Shown here one piece after another: positions 891-48,828 of a stretch of DNA of 48,828 bases (position 1 is the first letter of the stretch; every line of letters starts with the position of its first letter). The DNA is taken from positions 1 through 48,828 of the forward strand of contig JASGMW010000003.1 of NCBI GenBank assembly GCA_030156225.1, given 5' to 3'. The stretch is from Methanofollis sp. Its GTDB lineage: Archaea > Halobacteriota > Methanomicrobia > Methanomicrobiales > Methanofollaceae. The position numbers and the translations under genes are program-made. Below the pieces are notes generated by a model. That model was given only the letters and a program-made list of their open reading frames with translations, did no database searches and was not told the origin of the DNA.

Positions 891-1805
891 ATGCAGGAAC
901 GCACCGCCATCTGTGCACGGGGCCTGACGAAGCGTTTCGGCGGTTTCGAGGCGGTCGGGGCGATCGACTTCGACGTCGCCGAAGGAGAGGCCTTCGGCTT
1001 TCTCGGTCCCAACGGTGCAGGAAAGACCACGACGATGCGGATGATCCAGTGCGCCTCGCCCCGGAGCGGCGGCGACCTCCGGGTCTTCGGGCTGGACCCC
1101 GCAACCAGCCCGCGGGAGATCAAGGCCCTCCTCGGCATCGTGCCCCAGGAGAACAACCTCGATACCGACCTCACCGGCCGCGAGAACCTCGTCTCCTATG
1201 CCAGATACTTCGACATCCCGAAGGCCAGGGCCGAAGACCGGGTGGAAGACCTCCTCGGATTCATGCAGGTACGCGAAAAGGCCGACGTGGTCATCGAGAG
1301 CCTCTCCGGCGGGATGCGGCGGCGTTTGATCCTGGCCCGCGCCCTGGTCAACGACCCGCGGATCCTGATCCTCGACGAGCCCACCACCGGCCTCGACCCG
1401 CAGGCCCGTCACCAGATCTGGGACCGGTTGCGCACGCTCCAGGCGGAGGGGCGGACGATCGTGCTCACCAGCCACTACATGGAGGAGGCCGAACGCCTCT
1501 GCGACCGTCTGGTCATCATGGACGGCGGCCGGATCCTGGCCAGAGGCGCGCCCGCCGACCTGGTCAGGTCGCGGATCGGCCGGTACGTGATCGAGACCGA
1601 ACAGACCGACGCCGTCCGCGCCTGCCTGGATAGGCACGGCATCGGGTACGAGGAGGGGGGCGAGAGCCTTCACGTCCCGGTCGACGACCCGGCGCCGGTC
1701 TCGAAGACGCTTCTCGACGAGTGCGGGGCGATCCGCCTCTCCACCCGGCCTGCAACGCTGGAAGACGTGTTTCTCTCCTTCACGGGACGGAGGCTGCGGG
1801 AATGA
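891..1805 (+). CDS. ABC-2 type exporter, ATP-binding protein (DrrA-like)
   Basis: ATPase subunit of an ABC-2 type exporter of the daunorubicin-resistance (DrrA/CcmA) class, 304 residues from the ATG at 891. Visible motifs: Walker A GPNGAGKTTT near residue 40, a Q-loop PQENN, the signature LSGGMRRR, Walker B ILILDEPTTGLDPQ, and the switch His in LTSHYMEE. The C-terminal part is the usual small extension of this family. An upstream in-frame ATG at 810 would add 27 residues lacking family character, so 891 is preferred. The stop overlaps the start of the permease gene (ATGA), so the two are translationally coupled and form one transporter. The substrate cannot be told from sequence. Confidence 0.93.
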   Translation: MQERTAICARGLTKRFGGFEAVGAIDFDVAEGEAFGFLGPNGAGKTTTMRMIQCASPRSGGDLRVFGLDPATSPREIKALLGIVPQENNLDTDLTGRENLVSYARYFDIPKARAEDRVEDLLGFMQVREKADVVIESLSGGMRRRLILARALVNDPRILILDEPTTGLDPQARHQIWDRLRTLQAEGRTIVLTSHYMEEAERLCDRLVIMDGGRILARGAPADLVRSRIGRYVIETEQTDAVRACLDRHGIGYEEGGESLHVPVDDPAPVSKTLLDECGAIRLSTRPATLEDVFLSFTGRRLRE

Positions 1806-2575
1806 GCGGCGAGAACCTGGGCCGCCGCGCATGGATCGTCTGGCGCCGCAACCTCGACGTGTTCCTCAAGACCTGGCGGGTGAACCTGCTCATGCCGGCG
1901 ATCGAGCCGGTCCTCTACCTTCTCGCCTTCGGTCTGGGCGTCGGAGCGTACATCAGCGATATCGACGGCGTCCCGTACATCCGCTTCATCGCGCCGGCCC
2001 TTGTCGCCATCTCGGTGATGAACGCCTCCTTCTTCGAGTGCACCTACGGGAGTTACGTGCGGATGTACTACCAGAAGACCTTCGACGCCATCGTCGCCAC
2101 GCCCGTGTCGATCGACGAGGTGATCGCCGGCGAGATCCTGTGGGGCGCGACCAGAAGCCTCATCTCCGCATCCCTGATGCTCCTGGTTCTCGTCCTCTTC
2201 GGTGTCGTCGCCCTCCCCTCGTCCCTCCTTCTCATCCCCTTCGCCTTTGCGGCCGGCCTGCTCTTCGCCTCGATCGGGATGTGCTTCACCTCGATCATCC
2301 CGAACATCGAGGCGATCAACTATCCGTCTTTCCTGTTCATCACTCCGATGCTCCTCTTTTCAGGCACGTTTTTTCCCCTCGATGTCCTGCCCGGCGTCCT
2401 GCAGACCTTCGTCCTTGCGGTGCTGCCGCTGGCGCACGTCGTCAACGTCTGCCGGGCCCTCACCCTGATGAGCGGGTGGGAACTCATGGTCCTCGGCCTC
2501 GCCTGGATTGCCGTCGTCACCCCGCCCGTCTTTGCGATCGCACTGCGTTTGATGCGCCGGCGTCTTGTCGTCTGA
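1802..2575 (+). CDS. ABC-2 type exporter, permease
   Basis: Integral membrane partner of the preceding ATPase, 257 residues. It begins MSGENLGRRAWIVWRRNL and has about six hydrophobic segments, with the ABC-2 features of a short cytoplasmic N-terminus before helix 1 and a conserved region around SGTFFPLDVLP near residue 185 before the last helices. The start at 1802 overlaps the ATPase stop codon by the ATGA arrangement. In this family the ATPase and permease normally work as homodimers to export lipids, drugs or polysaccharides; which one applies here is unknown. Confidence 0.92.
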   Translation: MSGENLGRRAWIVWRRNLDVFLKTWRVNLLMPAIEPVLYLLAFGLGVGAYISDIDGVPYIRFIAPALVAISVMNASFFECTYGSYVRMYYQKTFDAIVATPVSIDEVIAGEILWGATRSLISASLMLLVLVLFGVVALPSSLLLIPFAFAAGLLFASIGMCFTSIIPNIEAINYPSFLFITPMLLFSGTFFPLDVLPGVLQTFVLAVLPLAHVVNVCRALTLMSGWELMVLGLAWIAVVTPPVFAIALRLMRRRLVV

Positions 2576-2658: not shown

Positions 2659-3190
2659 ATGGAACGCGGAGACCGGCACCCGGACAGCATCGGATTTTCA
2701 ACGTCCGGGTTCGAGGCGTTGACCGGCGGCATATGTGCGATCGCCATGACGCTTCTCGTCCTCGGGCTTGCGGTTCCGGCCGGAGAACGCGTGAACCTGC
2801 GTGCAGGACGGTTCCCGGACGTAATCCATGATGCGATCGCTTTTTTCATCCTTCACGGGATGGGGGTCTCCCACCAGATATCGACCGCCGGTTTCTGAAC
2901 CGAACCTCTGGCTGCCGATGATCATCCGCCTCATCCCTTCCACCACCTCGTTTTCAGGGGATGGCCATTTTCAGCCGGTGCGGCAGCGTCGTTTCTCCCG
3001 CCGGAACGATTGCGCGGGCGAGGCTGTAGCGGTTTGCACACCCGGCATGTTGCGCAGGGTGGAGGAGTTCGCAGAGGAGTTGTCCCCAGCCCTGGCATAC
3101 GGTCCGTTTCTGATCTCCCTGATCAGCATCTCCGCGTCTGTTTCTCGCCGATGCATGCATATACCCCCACCGGACCGATCATATAGAGGA
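2659..3190 (+). pseudogene. Degraded TMEM175 (DUF1211) potassium-channel-like gene
   Basis: After ATG 2659 the frame reads GFSTSGFEALTGGICAIAMT followed by LLVLGLAVP, which matches the first helix of TMEM175/DUF1211 channels (usual form FxxxRxEALxDGVFAIAMTLLVL). The channel's Arg and Asp are replaced (SGFEALTGG). The frame reaches FFILHGMGVSHQIS, matching the helix 2 region, and stops at 2896-2898. A second frame then carries LWLPMIIRLIPSTTSFSGDG (about 2908-2967), which matches the family's LWLNxxxLxxIxLIPFTTSLxGDY segment. A later stretch, FLISLISISASVSRRC (about 3108-3155), resembles the C-terminal region. Frameshifts, internal loss and altered signature residues show a dead gene. The right boundary is approximate. 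Confidence 0.7.
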
Positions 3191-3316: not shown

Positions 3317-3347
3317 ATAACCCCTTTCTTTCCACTGGAGCCGGCGG
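3317..3347 (-). other. Origin-recognition-box (ORB)-like element 1
   Basis: Read on the minus strand, the core is CTCCAGTGGAAAGAAAGGGG followed by TTAT. This fits the archaeal ORB layout: an imperfect TTCCAGTGGAAA dyad, then a short spacer and a run of G (the G-string) on one side, which is the DNA site of Orc1/Cdc6 proteins. A second copy in the same orientation lies about 196 bases to the right, and a third, inverted, lies at 48325-48353. No orc1/cdc6 gene is in this window. Confidence 0.65.
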
Positions 3348-3512
3348 GTGCGGTGCGGGCCGGTCGGATTTCCAGGGTTTATAGAACATTTCGTCCGTGA
3401 AACCCGTGTATCGTCGGAATATGCACGGGGCAGCATAAAAGAGGCGGGGCGTCGCGCCCCAATATCTCCGATATTCCGGATATGGTCCTATAGGGAGGGC
3501 GGATGGCGGTAC

Positions 3513-3547
3513 ATAACCCCATGATTTCCACTGGAGCGGTCGGGTCG
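3513..3547 (-). other. Origin-recognition-box (ORB)-like element 2
   Basis: Same element and orientation as the copy at 3317-3347. On the minus strand it reads CTCCAGTGGAAATCATGGGG then TTAT, with a GC-rich flank of similar pattern (GGAGCGGTCGGG against GGAGCCGGCGGG on the plus strand). The spacer between dyad and G-run differs (TCAT for GAAA) while dyad, G-run and TTAT are kept, as expected for protein-bound sites. Between the two copies are small inverted repeats (GGGGCG-TCG-CGCCCC near 3448-3464) but no long AT-rich unwinding region. Confidence 0.6.
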
Positions 3548-3561
3548 GGGCCACCCGTATC

Positions 3562-3776
3562 GGCATTGCGGCTCGAAATTTCGATCATGTTCCTGCCGGG
3601 GCGTACCTCCCCGTCACCGAACGCCACGCCCACGAGCACGATCACCCTCACCCGGCGGGCACGCCGCTGCCCGATCAGAAGGCGAGCACTCCCATCCCCA
3701 TACCCGCGAGGCGTTCAGGCACGAGCATCCGCACGTCCCCGACACCCCTCACCGTCACCGGCATGAGCGAGGCTGA
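3562..3776 (+). pseudogene. Decayed His-rich C-terminus of a membrane or metal-binding protein
   Basis: One frame reads GAYLPVTERHAHEHDHPHP (about 3598-3654). After a frame change near 3660-3684 it continues EHSHPHTREAFRHEHPHVPD, then TPHRHRHERG and a stop at 3774-3776. The pattern ERHxHEHxH...HxHPHxPDxHHRHxH is a recurrent His-rich tail in some transporters, probably of the DMT/EamA permease kind. No intact upstream helices or start codon remain and a frameshift interrupts the tail. Family assignment is tentative; the His-rich periodicity itself is plain. Confidence 0.45.
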
Positions 3777-3913: not shown

Positions 3914-4218
3914 ATGGGAGAAAAAACGATAAAGGACCTGGAGAGGAGATCGTACGGGTGCGCCTGCCGAACAAGCGCAACAAAGAGATGTTTGCGAGCG
4001 CCGACCTGATGCTCGGTGCGAATCATATCCGCGTCCGCTGCTTTGACGGGGAGACCAGGGTCGGCAGGATCAAGGGGAAGATTAAAAAGCGGGTCTGGAT
4101 CCGGGAGGGCGACGTCCTGATCGTGGTCCCGTGGGATTTCCAGAAGGAGAAGTGCGATATTATCTACCGTTATACCCGTCCCCAGGTGGACTGGCTCCGC
4201 GGCCACGGCTATCTCTAA
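3914..4218 (+). CDS. eif1A: Translation initiation factor aIF1A, start out of frame with body
   Basis: Archaeal initiation factor 1A, an OB-fold protein that binds the ribosomal A site with aIF1/aIF2. The body from about 3931 is intact and typical (GPGEEIVRVRLPNKRNKEMF, ANHIRVRC, GRIKGKIKKRVWIREGD, then VPWDFQKEKCDI and the usual end WLRGHGYL). The best start is ATG 3914, preceded 13 bases upstream by GGAGCTGAT, an 8-of-9 match to the ideal Shine-Dalgarno. Yet this ATG is in the wrong frame: ATG GGA GAA AAA ACG runs through an A6 tract (3921-3926), and one extra A would give MGEKNDKGPGEEI, a normal N-terminus. No ATG, GTG or TTG start lies in the body frame near here; the first in-frame ATG upstream, at 3763, lies in the remnant of the His-rich gene. 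Either an A was lost (real or assembly error) or slippage restores the frame. Confidence 0.9.
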
Positions 4219-22088: not shown

Positions 22089-22760
22089 TTATTTCTCTTT
22101 CTTCCGTCTCTCGCTCAGGTAGTCCCAGAGGAACATCAGGGCGATCAGCGCGATCGCCACCTCGACGAGATGGAGCGGGAGGTAGCCGACCAGAGGGATG
22201 GCGAACAGGGCCTTGCCCACGATCCACCCCTTCTTCACCGGCTGGATCTGCCCGAGGCCCTGATAGGTCGCCAGTTGATCTGGAACCCTGTTATTGTCGC
22301 CCCACGTGATATACCCCCCATGGGGCGCCGTATAATTGACCGTACCTCCTTCGAGCGATATCTGAACCGTCTTGTTTGCCTCGACCCACATCATCGCGCG
22401 GTGGATGATCGGATGGACGGAATCGACTCCGTTCGGCCGGTAGATGATCACGTCTCCGTACTCGTTGTATTTCATATAGCCGGACGCCTGCCCGTCCTCA
22501 AAGGTCTGCAGAGCGCCAAAGCGATCGGGCGTCACGACGAAGACCAGGTCGCCGACATGCATGTTCGGGACCATGCTCTCGGACTCGATCGCCACCACCG
22601 CAGGCCAGGTGCCGGAAACAAGGAAGAGCACCAGGGCGATCGCACCGACGACCACCACCGCCCACAGGATATCCCTGGCAATGGAAACCACGGGGTTCTG
22701 GCTCTCTCTGAAGCGACAGATCACATTTTTATCGCTTTTCCGAACCTTATTTTTCACCAT
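22089..22760 (-). CDS. Signal peptidase I (archaeal S26B)
   Basis: 223 residues from ATG 22760. An N-terminal helix (about residues 26-48) precedes the catalytic Ser in AIESESMVPNMHVGDLV near residue 58; the catalytic His is in HPIIHRAMMW and the WGDNNRVPDQ loop carries the conserved Asp of the archaeal/ER type. A second helix near the C-terminus (LHLVEVAIALIALMFLW) is also usual in archaea. It cleaves secretory signal peptides at the outer face of the membrane. TAATTATATCAG at about 22785-22796 is a good TATA box and places the transcript start close to ATG 22760; the upstream ATG at 22775 would lie near or before the start site. Confidence 0.9.
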   Translation of the reverse strand: MVKNKVRKSDKNVICRFRESQNPVVSIARDILWAVVVVGAIALVLFLVSGTWPAVVAIESESMVPNMHVGDLVFVVTPDRFGALQTFEDGQASGYMKYNEYGDVIIYRPNGVDSVHPIIHRAMMWVEANKTVQISLEGGTVNYTAPHGGYITWGDNNRVPDQLATYQGLGQIQPVKKGWIVGKALFAIPLVGYLPLHLVEVAIALIALMFLWDYLSERRKKEK

Positions 22761-48156: not shown

Positions 48157-48441
48157 ATATGAGGAAGAGGGGCATCGGCCTAATTATACCATTCGCCATG
48201 CCGAAAACCCCCCCTGGAATCTGCAGACGGACCTGCCGGACAATCCGACGTGAAAACTGTTTAACCCCATATAATACGAAGAAACAGACGTATCCGCGCA
48301 GGATCGGATCGTACAAACCTATCGCCGGTTCCAGTGGAAATAAAGGGGTTATACGGACGCTGTCTGTCAGACGGCAGGCGAGCGCGGCCGGGCCGGACCC
48401 GCGGGATCGATTCAGGTAAAAAGCAGGGAGACCGGGGGGCC
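48157..48441. other. Intergenic stretch with ORB-like element
   Basis: 285 bases between the aminotransferase end and the DUF4405 gene. It contains the DUF4405 promoter at its left, a partial element ACTGTTTAACCCCATATAAT near 48256, and the ORB-like element at 48325-48353. No coding frame with family character. Confidence 0.5.
48325..48353 (+). other. Origin-recognition-box (ORB)-like element 3
   Basis: On the plus strand GTTCCAGTGGAAATAAAGGG followed by GTTAT. It is the third and best copy of the element seen twice at 3317-3547, here in the opposite orientation on the map: the dyad TTCCAGTGGAA is perfect but for its centre, and it is followed by AATAAAGGGG. Being single, it may be a distant Orc1/Cdc6 binding site or part of an origin lying outside the window. 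Confidence 0.6.
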
Positions 48442-48828
48442 TCAGGTCAGACCGGCAACGAAGATCCCCATCCGTTCGACGGCGACAGAGAGGTTCTCGC
48501 GGCTCGTCGCATAGGAGCAGCGGATATGTCCTTTCCCCGACTCCCCGAAGGCGCGGCCCGGGACAACGGCGACTTTCTGCTCCTTCAGGAGTTGTTCTGC
48601 AAACTCCTCGTCGGAAAGACCGGTCGCCTCGATCGAGGGAAAGGCGTAGAAGGCGCCCTGCGGCAGGTGACAGGGAAGACCGATCCGGTTGAGCCCCTCC
48701 ACAAAGAGGTTGCGGCGGAAGCGGTACTCCCGCACCATCTCGTTCTTGTTCTCCTCGGCCTGCCTGAGCGCCGCATGGGCGGCGATCTGACCCATCACCG
48801 GGGCGCAGAGCATCACGTACTGGTGGAT
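48442..48828 (-). CDS. Class I/II aminotransferase, C-terminal part
   Basis: The last 128 residues of a PLP-dependent aminotransferase of fold type I run from the right edge to a stop at 48442. Seen: VREYRFRRNLFVEGLNRIGL, CHLPQGAFYAFPSIEATGLS (the family's P-x-G-A-F-Y-x-F) and VAVVPGRAFGESGKGHIRCS (the conserved Arg that binds the substrate carboxylate). This fits aspartate/alanine-type or MalY-like aminotransferases; the substrate cannot be set because the PLP-Lys part is missing. Confidence 0.9.
   Translation of the reverse strand: MHQYVMLCAPVMGQIAAHAALRQAEENKNEMVREYRFRRNLFVEGLNRIGLPCHLPQGAFYAFPSIEATGLSDEEFAEQLLKEQKVAVVPGRAFGESGKGHIRCSYATSRENLSVAVERMGIFVAGLT

Follow-up and report, generated by a model that had tools for sequence, protein, structure and literature searches.

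In Escherichia coli, datA and DARS are DnaA-box loci outside oriC, and datA dampens initiation by holding the initiator. To our knowledge, little is known about limits on initiation in archaea, or about the action of Orc1 on genes away from the origin, outside haloarchaea and Sulfolobales. Downstream of cdc6E in Haloarcula hispanica, the oriC2D element contains 11 origin recognition boxes (ORBs) within 722 bp; it is without origin activity and controls oriC2 negatively, probably by titration of Cdc6E (PMC3936714). ORBs have also been reported in the DP1 gene of Thermococcales. In Saccharolobus islandicus, the Orc1-family protein Orc1-2 is a transcription regulator of the DNA-damage response (PMC9738581). 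Haloarchaeal titration, dormant haloarchaeal origins, the DP1 boxes and the Orc1-2 regulator are what we found in the literature on ORBs located outside origins, on those near hel308 and on those of Methanomicrobiales, a search of partial coverage in which absence is no proof of novelty.

Here we describe a pair of ORBs in a Methanofollis sp. draft genome. The stretch of DNA analysed, referred to as the window, is 48,828 bp long and comprises the entire contig C31 (JASGMW010000003.1). Two perfect ORBs are located in it between the remnants of a cupin and an EamA transporter gene, with the following surroundings:

891 to 1805, plus strand: ABC-2 transporter ATPase (Pfam PF00005), whose orthologue is likewise a neighbour of the distal ORB in the Methanoculleus family
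1802 to 2575, plus strand: ABC-2 transporter permease (Pfam PF01061)
2659 to 2962, plus strand: remnant of a TMEM175-type channel gene, in fragments that match the intact gene of locus L061
2963 to 3126, minus strand: remnant of a cupin gene that is intact in other Methanofollis
3317 to 3339, minus strand: ORB copy 1, TCCAGTGGAAAGAAAGGGGTTAT, composed of TCCAGTGGAAA-GAAA-GGGGTTAT; 32.5 of 38 bits with a matrix of origin ORBs
3513 to 3535, minus strand: ORB copy 2, TCCAGTGGAAATCATGGGGTTAT, composed of TCCAGTGGAAA-TCAT-GGGGTTAT; 27.0 bits with the same matrix
3598 to 3767, plus strand: remnant of an EamA transporter gene (C-terminal pieces), with intact relatives
3949 to 4218, plus strand: conserved part of the aIF1A coding region, a neighbour by rearrangement that is not found here in most relatives
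48330 to 48352, plus strand: third exact ORB, which forms the outer box of the true origin at orc1 and is separated by 3.13 kb from the orc1-side box once C31 and C85 are joined
48730 to 48828, no strand: overlap with the start of contig C85, an exact match of 99 bases; the reading frame of an aminotransferase is continuous across the joint

The first two copies are exact, face the same direction and are 196 bases apart from start to start, as the original prediction had described them. Both carry the TCCAGTGGAAA core and the G-string at the fixed spacing without a single change, and the same motif is present in the orc1-linked origin of this genome and rare elsewhere. Because a rare motif is thus common to the pair and to the cognate origin at orc1, their predicted identity as ORBs with a G-string is strongly supported: the pair consists of real ORBs, rare and cognate to the local Orc1. 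From the sequence, occupation of these distal boxes by Orc1 would be expected. The four spacer bases of the two copies differ, so the pair is not a fresh duplication.

We scanned the whole 1.79-Mb draft assembly with the ORB pattern, allowing for up to three mismatches. Five matches were obtained, three of them in the window, where 0.01 are expected by chance, together with C85:2730 (minus strand) and C85:3145 (plus strand), while the backwards pattern used as a control gave none. A shorter 20-base pattern picked up a sixth box with one mismatch at about C85:2822-2825 (minus strand), which brings the genome total to six, and the predicted target list of Orc1 comprises about five to seven sites per genome. 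The many random copies that a genome-wide count might have revealed were not seen. With three matches against 0.01 in the window and five against none in the genome, and with no evidence found in its favour, chance similarity has a negligible probability as an explanation of the pair and was rejected. A weak ORB-like match at positions 22677-22699 of the window (14.8 of 38 bits) is the sole other one above 10 bits and probably a chance occurrence. No unusual fold was detected at the site (z 0.01), and a comparison with Rfam revealed no structured or non-coding RNA in the window or at distal-ORB loci, remote tRNAs aside.

The ORB at position 48330, absent from the original prediction, belongs to the origin itself. 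The window ends with the same 99 bases with which C85 begins, an overlap that probably corresponds to the assembly k-mer and at which the draft genome can be joined. C85 carries the orc1/cdc6 gene (C85:1493-2602, minus strand; TIGR02928, 448.7 bits; joined coordinates 50108-51391), which, owing to this overlap, can be placed about 47 kb from the pair (47-48 kb in the joined C31 and C85). The earlier statement that no orc1/cdc6 is nearby therefore holds within the window only. Upstream of orc1, boxes at C85:2730 (minus strand), about 2822-2825 (minus strand) and 3145 (plus strand) are arranged around a stretch of 39% GC. An inverted outer box at 3.09-3.13 kb is shared by all ten further Methanofollis genomes in which the two boxes are on a single contig, indicating that copy 48330 is a standing outer part of the origin. 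The layout of the Methanofollis origin is fixed (loci L056-L068): there is an outer inverted ORB some 3.1 kb away, beyond orc1, an orc1-side box with a core-variant box (mostly TCCASTCGAAA) at a distance of exactly 92 bp, and an inverted box 0.4-1.2 kb out. In Methanoculleus, the origin shows two outer boxes 218 bp apart (L237, L238).

The site was found in four Methanofollis species (G003, G000, G005 and G011), in each case at the ABC-2/cupin locus and with one or two ORBs. A tree of six proteins, G003,(G000,(G005,G011)), recovers with a support of 1.0 exactly the clade carrying the site, within which the distance to the origin ranges from 16 to 199 kb. Eight of the twelve Methanofollis lack the distal site; they keep the cupin gene with the adjoining ABC-2 genes and have no ORB there, and the site is thus not essential. 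The intact gene order is seen in G005: ABC-2 ATPase, permease, TMEM175-type channel, ion channel, cupin (minus strand), ORB, EamA (plus strand) and aIF1A. Here a single perfect ORB lies 187 kb from the origin in a gap of 204 bp between the divergent cupin and EamA starts, at distances of 113 and 70 bp, respectively. Comparison with intact relatives made the TMEM175, cupin and EamA remnants of the window recognizable, in agreement with the prediction that the elements lie between pseudogenes. Between positions 3178 and 3637 the window no longer aligns with G005, yet both of its boxes are perfect. In G011, the single ORB is 199 kb from the origin, again in a 204-bp gap, and carries two core changes; since 2 of the 10 substitutions in this gap fall into the box, constraint has been lost in this species. 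G003 harbors a same-strand pair 164 bp apart, 16 kb from the origin, in a gap of 214 bp that separates two genes converging with their 3′ ends and has no flanking promoter. A helical phasing of the pair was rejected, as the spacing of 196 bp in the window genome and 164 bp in G003 is not fixed. We also rejected aIF1A as a relevant neighbour: the pair does lie just before this gene in the window, but in G001-G004, G006, G007 and G009 aIF1A is found elsewhere, without an ORB around it in stretches of up to 16 kb.

A counterpart of the site exists in the Methanoculleus family. Using the 20-base ORB and counting copies with one mismatch, we found a distal ORB in 21 of the 23 genomes searched, G014 and G019 being those without one. 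Where origin and distal box are on one contig, they are separated by 0.54-0.98 Mb. In all 22 loci fetched from this family, the ORB lies 5′ of the adjoining orthologous ABC-2 operon. A SET-domain and a pilin-like gene converge on the ORB in most Methanoculleus loci and likewise in L285 of the sister genus; L284 of that genus has the pilin-like gene. The ORB is kept in L228, where both genes are gone, and in L288, which has lost the pilin-like gene. With 20 loci aligned, no other 20-mer within the 400 bp is as conserved as the ORB (0.955 versus a mean of 0.733), a pattern that clearly points to purifying selection on the distal ORB of this family. Some of the distal matches in L229-L233 and L236 are located inside coding sequence. 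A rough estimate for genomes of 2.5 Mb puts the chance that two unrelated distal ORBs fall within 6 kb of one and the same operon at about 0.5%, which makes common descent or function of the sites in the two genera likely. Homology of the sites is likely but falls short of proof, as the ABC-2 operon is found on opposite sides of the ORB in Methanofollis and Methanoculleus.

Based on these observations, we tentatively propose, at a probability somewhat short of even, that the pair is an accessory, origin-distal docking site for Orc1 with a titration-like role, and not an origin. The boxes would be recognized by the Orc1 protein whose gene, like its origin, is found just past the right end of the window, 47-48 kb from the pair. 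Most likely, they would keep Orc1 from the origin and thereby dampen initiation, presumably by affecting the availability of the initiator and not transcription. We prefer titration because the boxes are often without a promoter, can outlive their neighbours, show no fixed distance or polarity to the origin, and have a precedent in the Haloarcula hispanica cluster. Boxes have survived the loss of one or both flanking genes in the Methanoculleus family (L288, L228) and the decay of both in the window, and they are found between convergent gene ends in G003, with no promoter on either flank, and in most Methanoculleus loci. Against this reading stand the eight Methanofollis genomes without the site, the loss of constraint in G011, and the number of boxes, one or two per site compared with eleven in the haloarchaeal titrator; the sequestering power of one or two boxes would be small unless Orc1 is scarce.

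Like oriC2D, the distal sites consist of ORBs outside an origin proper and without origin anatomy. Unlike oriC2D with its 11 boxes adjoining cdc6 (PMC3936714), they comprise 1-2 boxes, and 16 kb to 0.98 Mb separate them from orc1. Titration regions of the oriC2D type have many ORBs (3 to 11) clustered next to cdc6, whereas the pair has 2 boxes 47 kb from orc1; the box at 48330, located across orc1, is the closer positional analogue of oriC2D. The sites share with datA and DARS that an initiator-binding locus is placed away from the origin and is itself no origin, but initiator and sites are unrelated to Orc1 and ORB, and the origin distance of the distal ORBs is not conserved, which makes a timing role less likely. 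The DP1 boxes of Thermococcales are also found outside the canonical origin region, but inside a replication gene, whereas the pair is intergenic and does not adjoin replication genes. A fork-polar role was rejected, since the boxes, judged by position and strand, face away from the origin in G000, G003, G039, G071, G095, G049 and G087 and toward it in G005, G011 and G044; a fixed-distance or timing role was rejected in view of distances from 16 kb to 0.98 Mb.

The original prediction, whose interpretation is borne out in part, had offered a secondary origin, a vestigial one or a local control site as alternatives. That the pair is a second origin, be it secondary or dormant, is very unlikely. 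Two ORBs with G-strings would suit an origin, and the dormant origins of Haloferax mediterranei resemble the site as ORB-bearing loci other than the main origin (PMC4595724). These have their own cdc6 with adjoining inverted ORBs (PMC4595724), however, whereas the boxes of the pair form a direct repeat and the nearest orc1/cdc6 gene is 47 kb away on C85. Instead of an AT-rich unwinding region between inverted ORBs, the gap between the two boxes has 59.5% GC, compared with 39% inside the real origin, and G005, G011 and Methanoculleus carry a single box. GC skew was too noisy to help: the stretches of G005 and G039 that were plotted show no clear change at 324 kb and 633 kb, respectively, but the signal is weak, and noisy already where G005 has its main origin. 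A relic is a different matter: the boxes of this genome could be leftovers, now without function, of a once useful site in a stretch that is decaying. The decayed flanking genes, the restriction of the site to one of three Methanofollis clades and the degenerating copy of G011 would agree with this, and in this genome a vestigial site is conceivable. We nevertheless consider it unlikely, since both copies are perfect amid non-coding DNA that has diverged beyond alignment with G005, their unlike spacers speak against a fresh duplication, and G003 has kept a same-strand pair as well; moreover, the Methanoculleus equivalent is clearly under purifying selection.

Orc1 bound to the boxes could alternatively act as a switch for nearby genes (cupin, EamA transporter, ABC-2 operon), a role that is possible at the divergent promoters of G005; the position expected of an operator is seen there and in G011. 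The association of distal ORBs with the ABC-2 operon in both genera points in the same direction, as does a clearly gene-linked ORB elsewhere in the order, which in Methanofollis and Methanoculleus lies 4-5 bp before the hel308 ATG and is independent of origin distance. Orc1-2 of Sulfolobales shows that a protein of this family can act at promoters, though Orc1-2 of S. islandicus is a non-initiator paralogue recognizing a different site, ANTTTC, and not the ORB (PMC9738581). Yet a box adjoining, and conserved with, the promoter of a live gene is not what we found at the pair: cupin and EamA are dead in the window while both boxes are intact, and local control is improbable at the convergent 3′ ends of G003 and most of the Methanoculleus family. 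For the pair, we therefore judge this switch to be rather improbable. Promoter control by an ORB is a strong idea for hel308 and a weak one for the pair.

Returning to docking, the value of the finding lies in the class of sites revealed and not in the pair as an origin. The pair belongs to a little-noticed class of conserved origin-distant ORBs with a possible role in adjusting the initiator or genes in the vicinity, and two classes of ORBs are conserved away from the origin, one at the ABC-2 locus and one in the hel308 leader. The latter is present in this genome at the following position:

L006:10892-10914 (contig C85): hel308-leader ORB

Across the order, an ORB closely precedes the hel308 start codon in the majority of loci that we examined (L342, L343, L237, L238 and others). 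The distance from its end to the ATG is 4 bp at each of nine Methanofollis loci and at almost every Methanoculleus locus. Many loci of Methanoregula, Methanolinea and other Methanomicrobiales show it at 4-20 bp, and some loci are without it. It is present although the gene is located about 22 kb from the origin (G002) or on another contig (G006). Judging from this position, control of the replication-repair helicase Hel308 by Orc1 is possible. It is conceivable, though we would not rate it as probable, that Methanomicrobiales keep a few non-origin ORBs under selection, comprising the hel308-leader box and one or two sites for docking, placed at the ABC-2 locus or in gaps elsewhere with no fixed distance to the origin, as an archaeal counterpart of the extra-oriC DnaA-box system (datA/DARS and DnaA-controlled genes). 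If so, the hel308-leader ORB would couple a fork-repair helicase to the initiator.

Further non-origin ORBs were observed in other Methanomicrobiales. Two distal ORBs of the same direction, spaced by 70 bp and flanked by convergent genes, are present in genus g13 (G027, G070), which belongs to another family (L348:6671 and 6741; L349:3058 and 3128); ABC-2, SET and hel308 genes are not nearby. Two Methanospirillum-like genomes have a distal ORB upstream of grpE-dnaK, which on its other side is bordered by the 3′ end of a gene for 650 amino acids (L275:6165, L280:6600). Finally, the sequence TCCAGTGGAAGGAAAGGGGTATAAAAG, an ORB fused to a TATA-like box and without a match in Rfam, is common to three genomes (L276:6142, L277:6620, L278:6100), in which more conserved bases follow downstream and the gene contexts differ.
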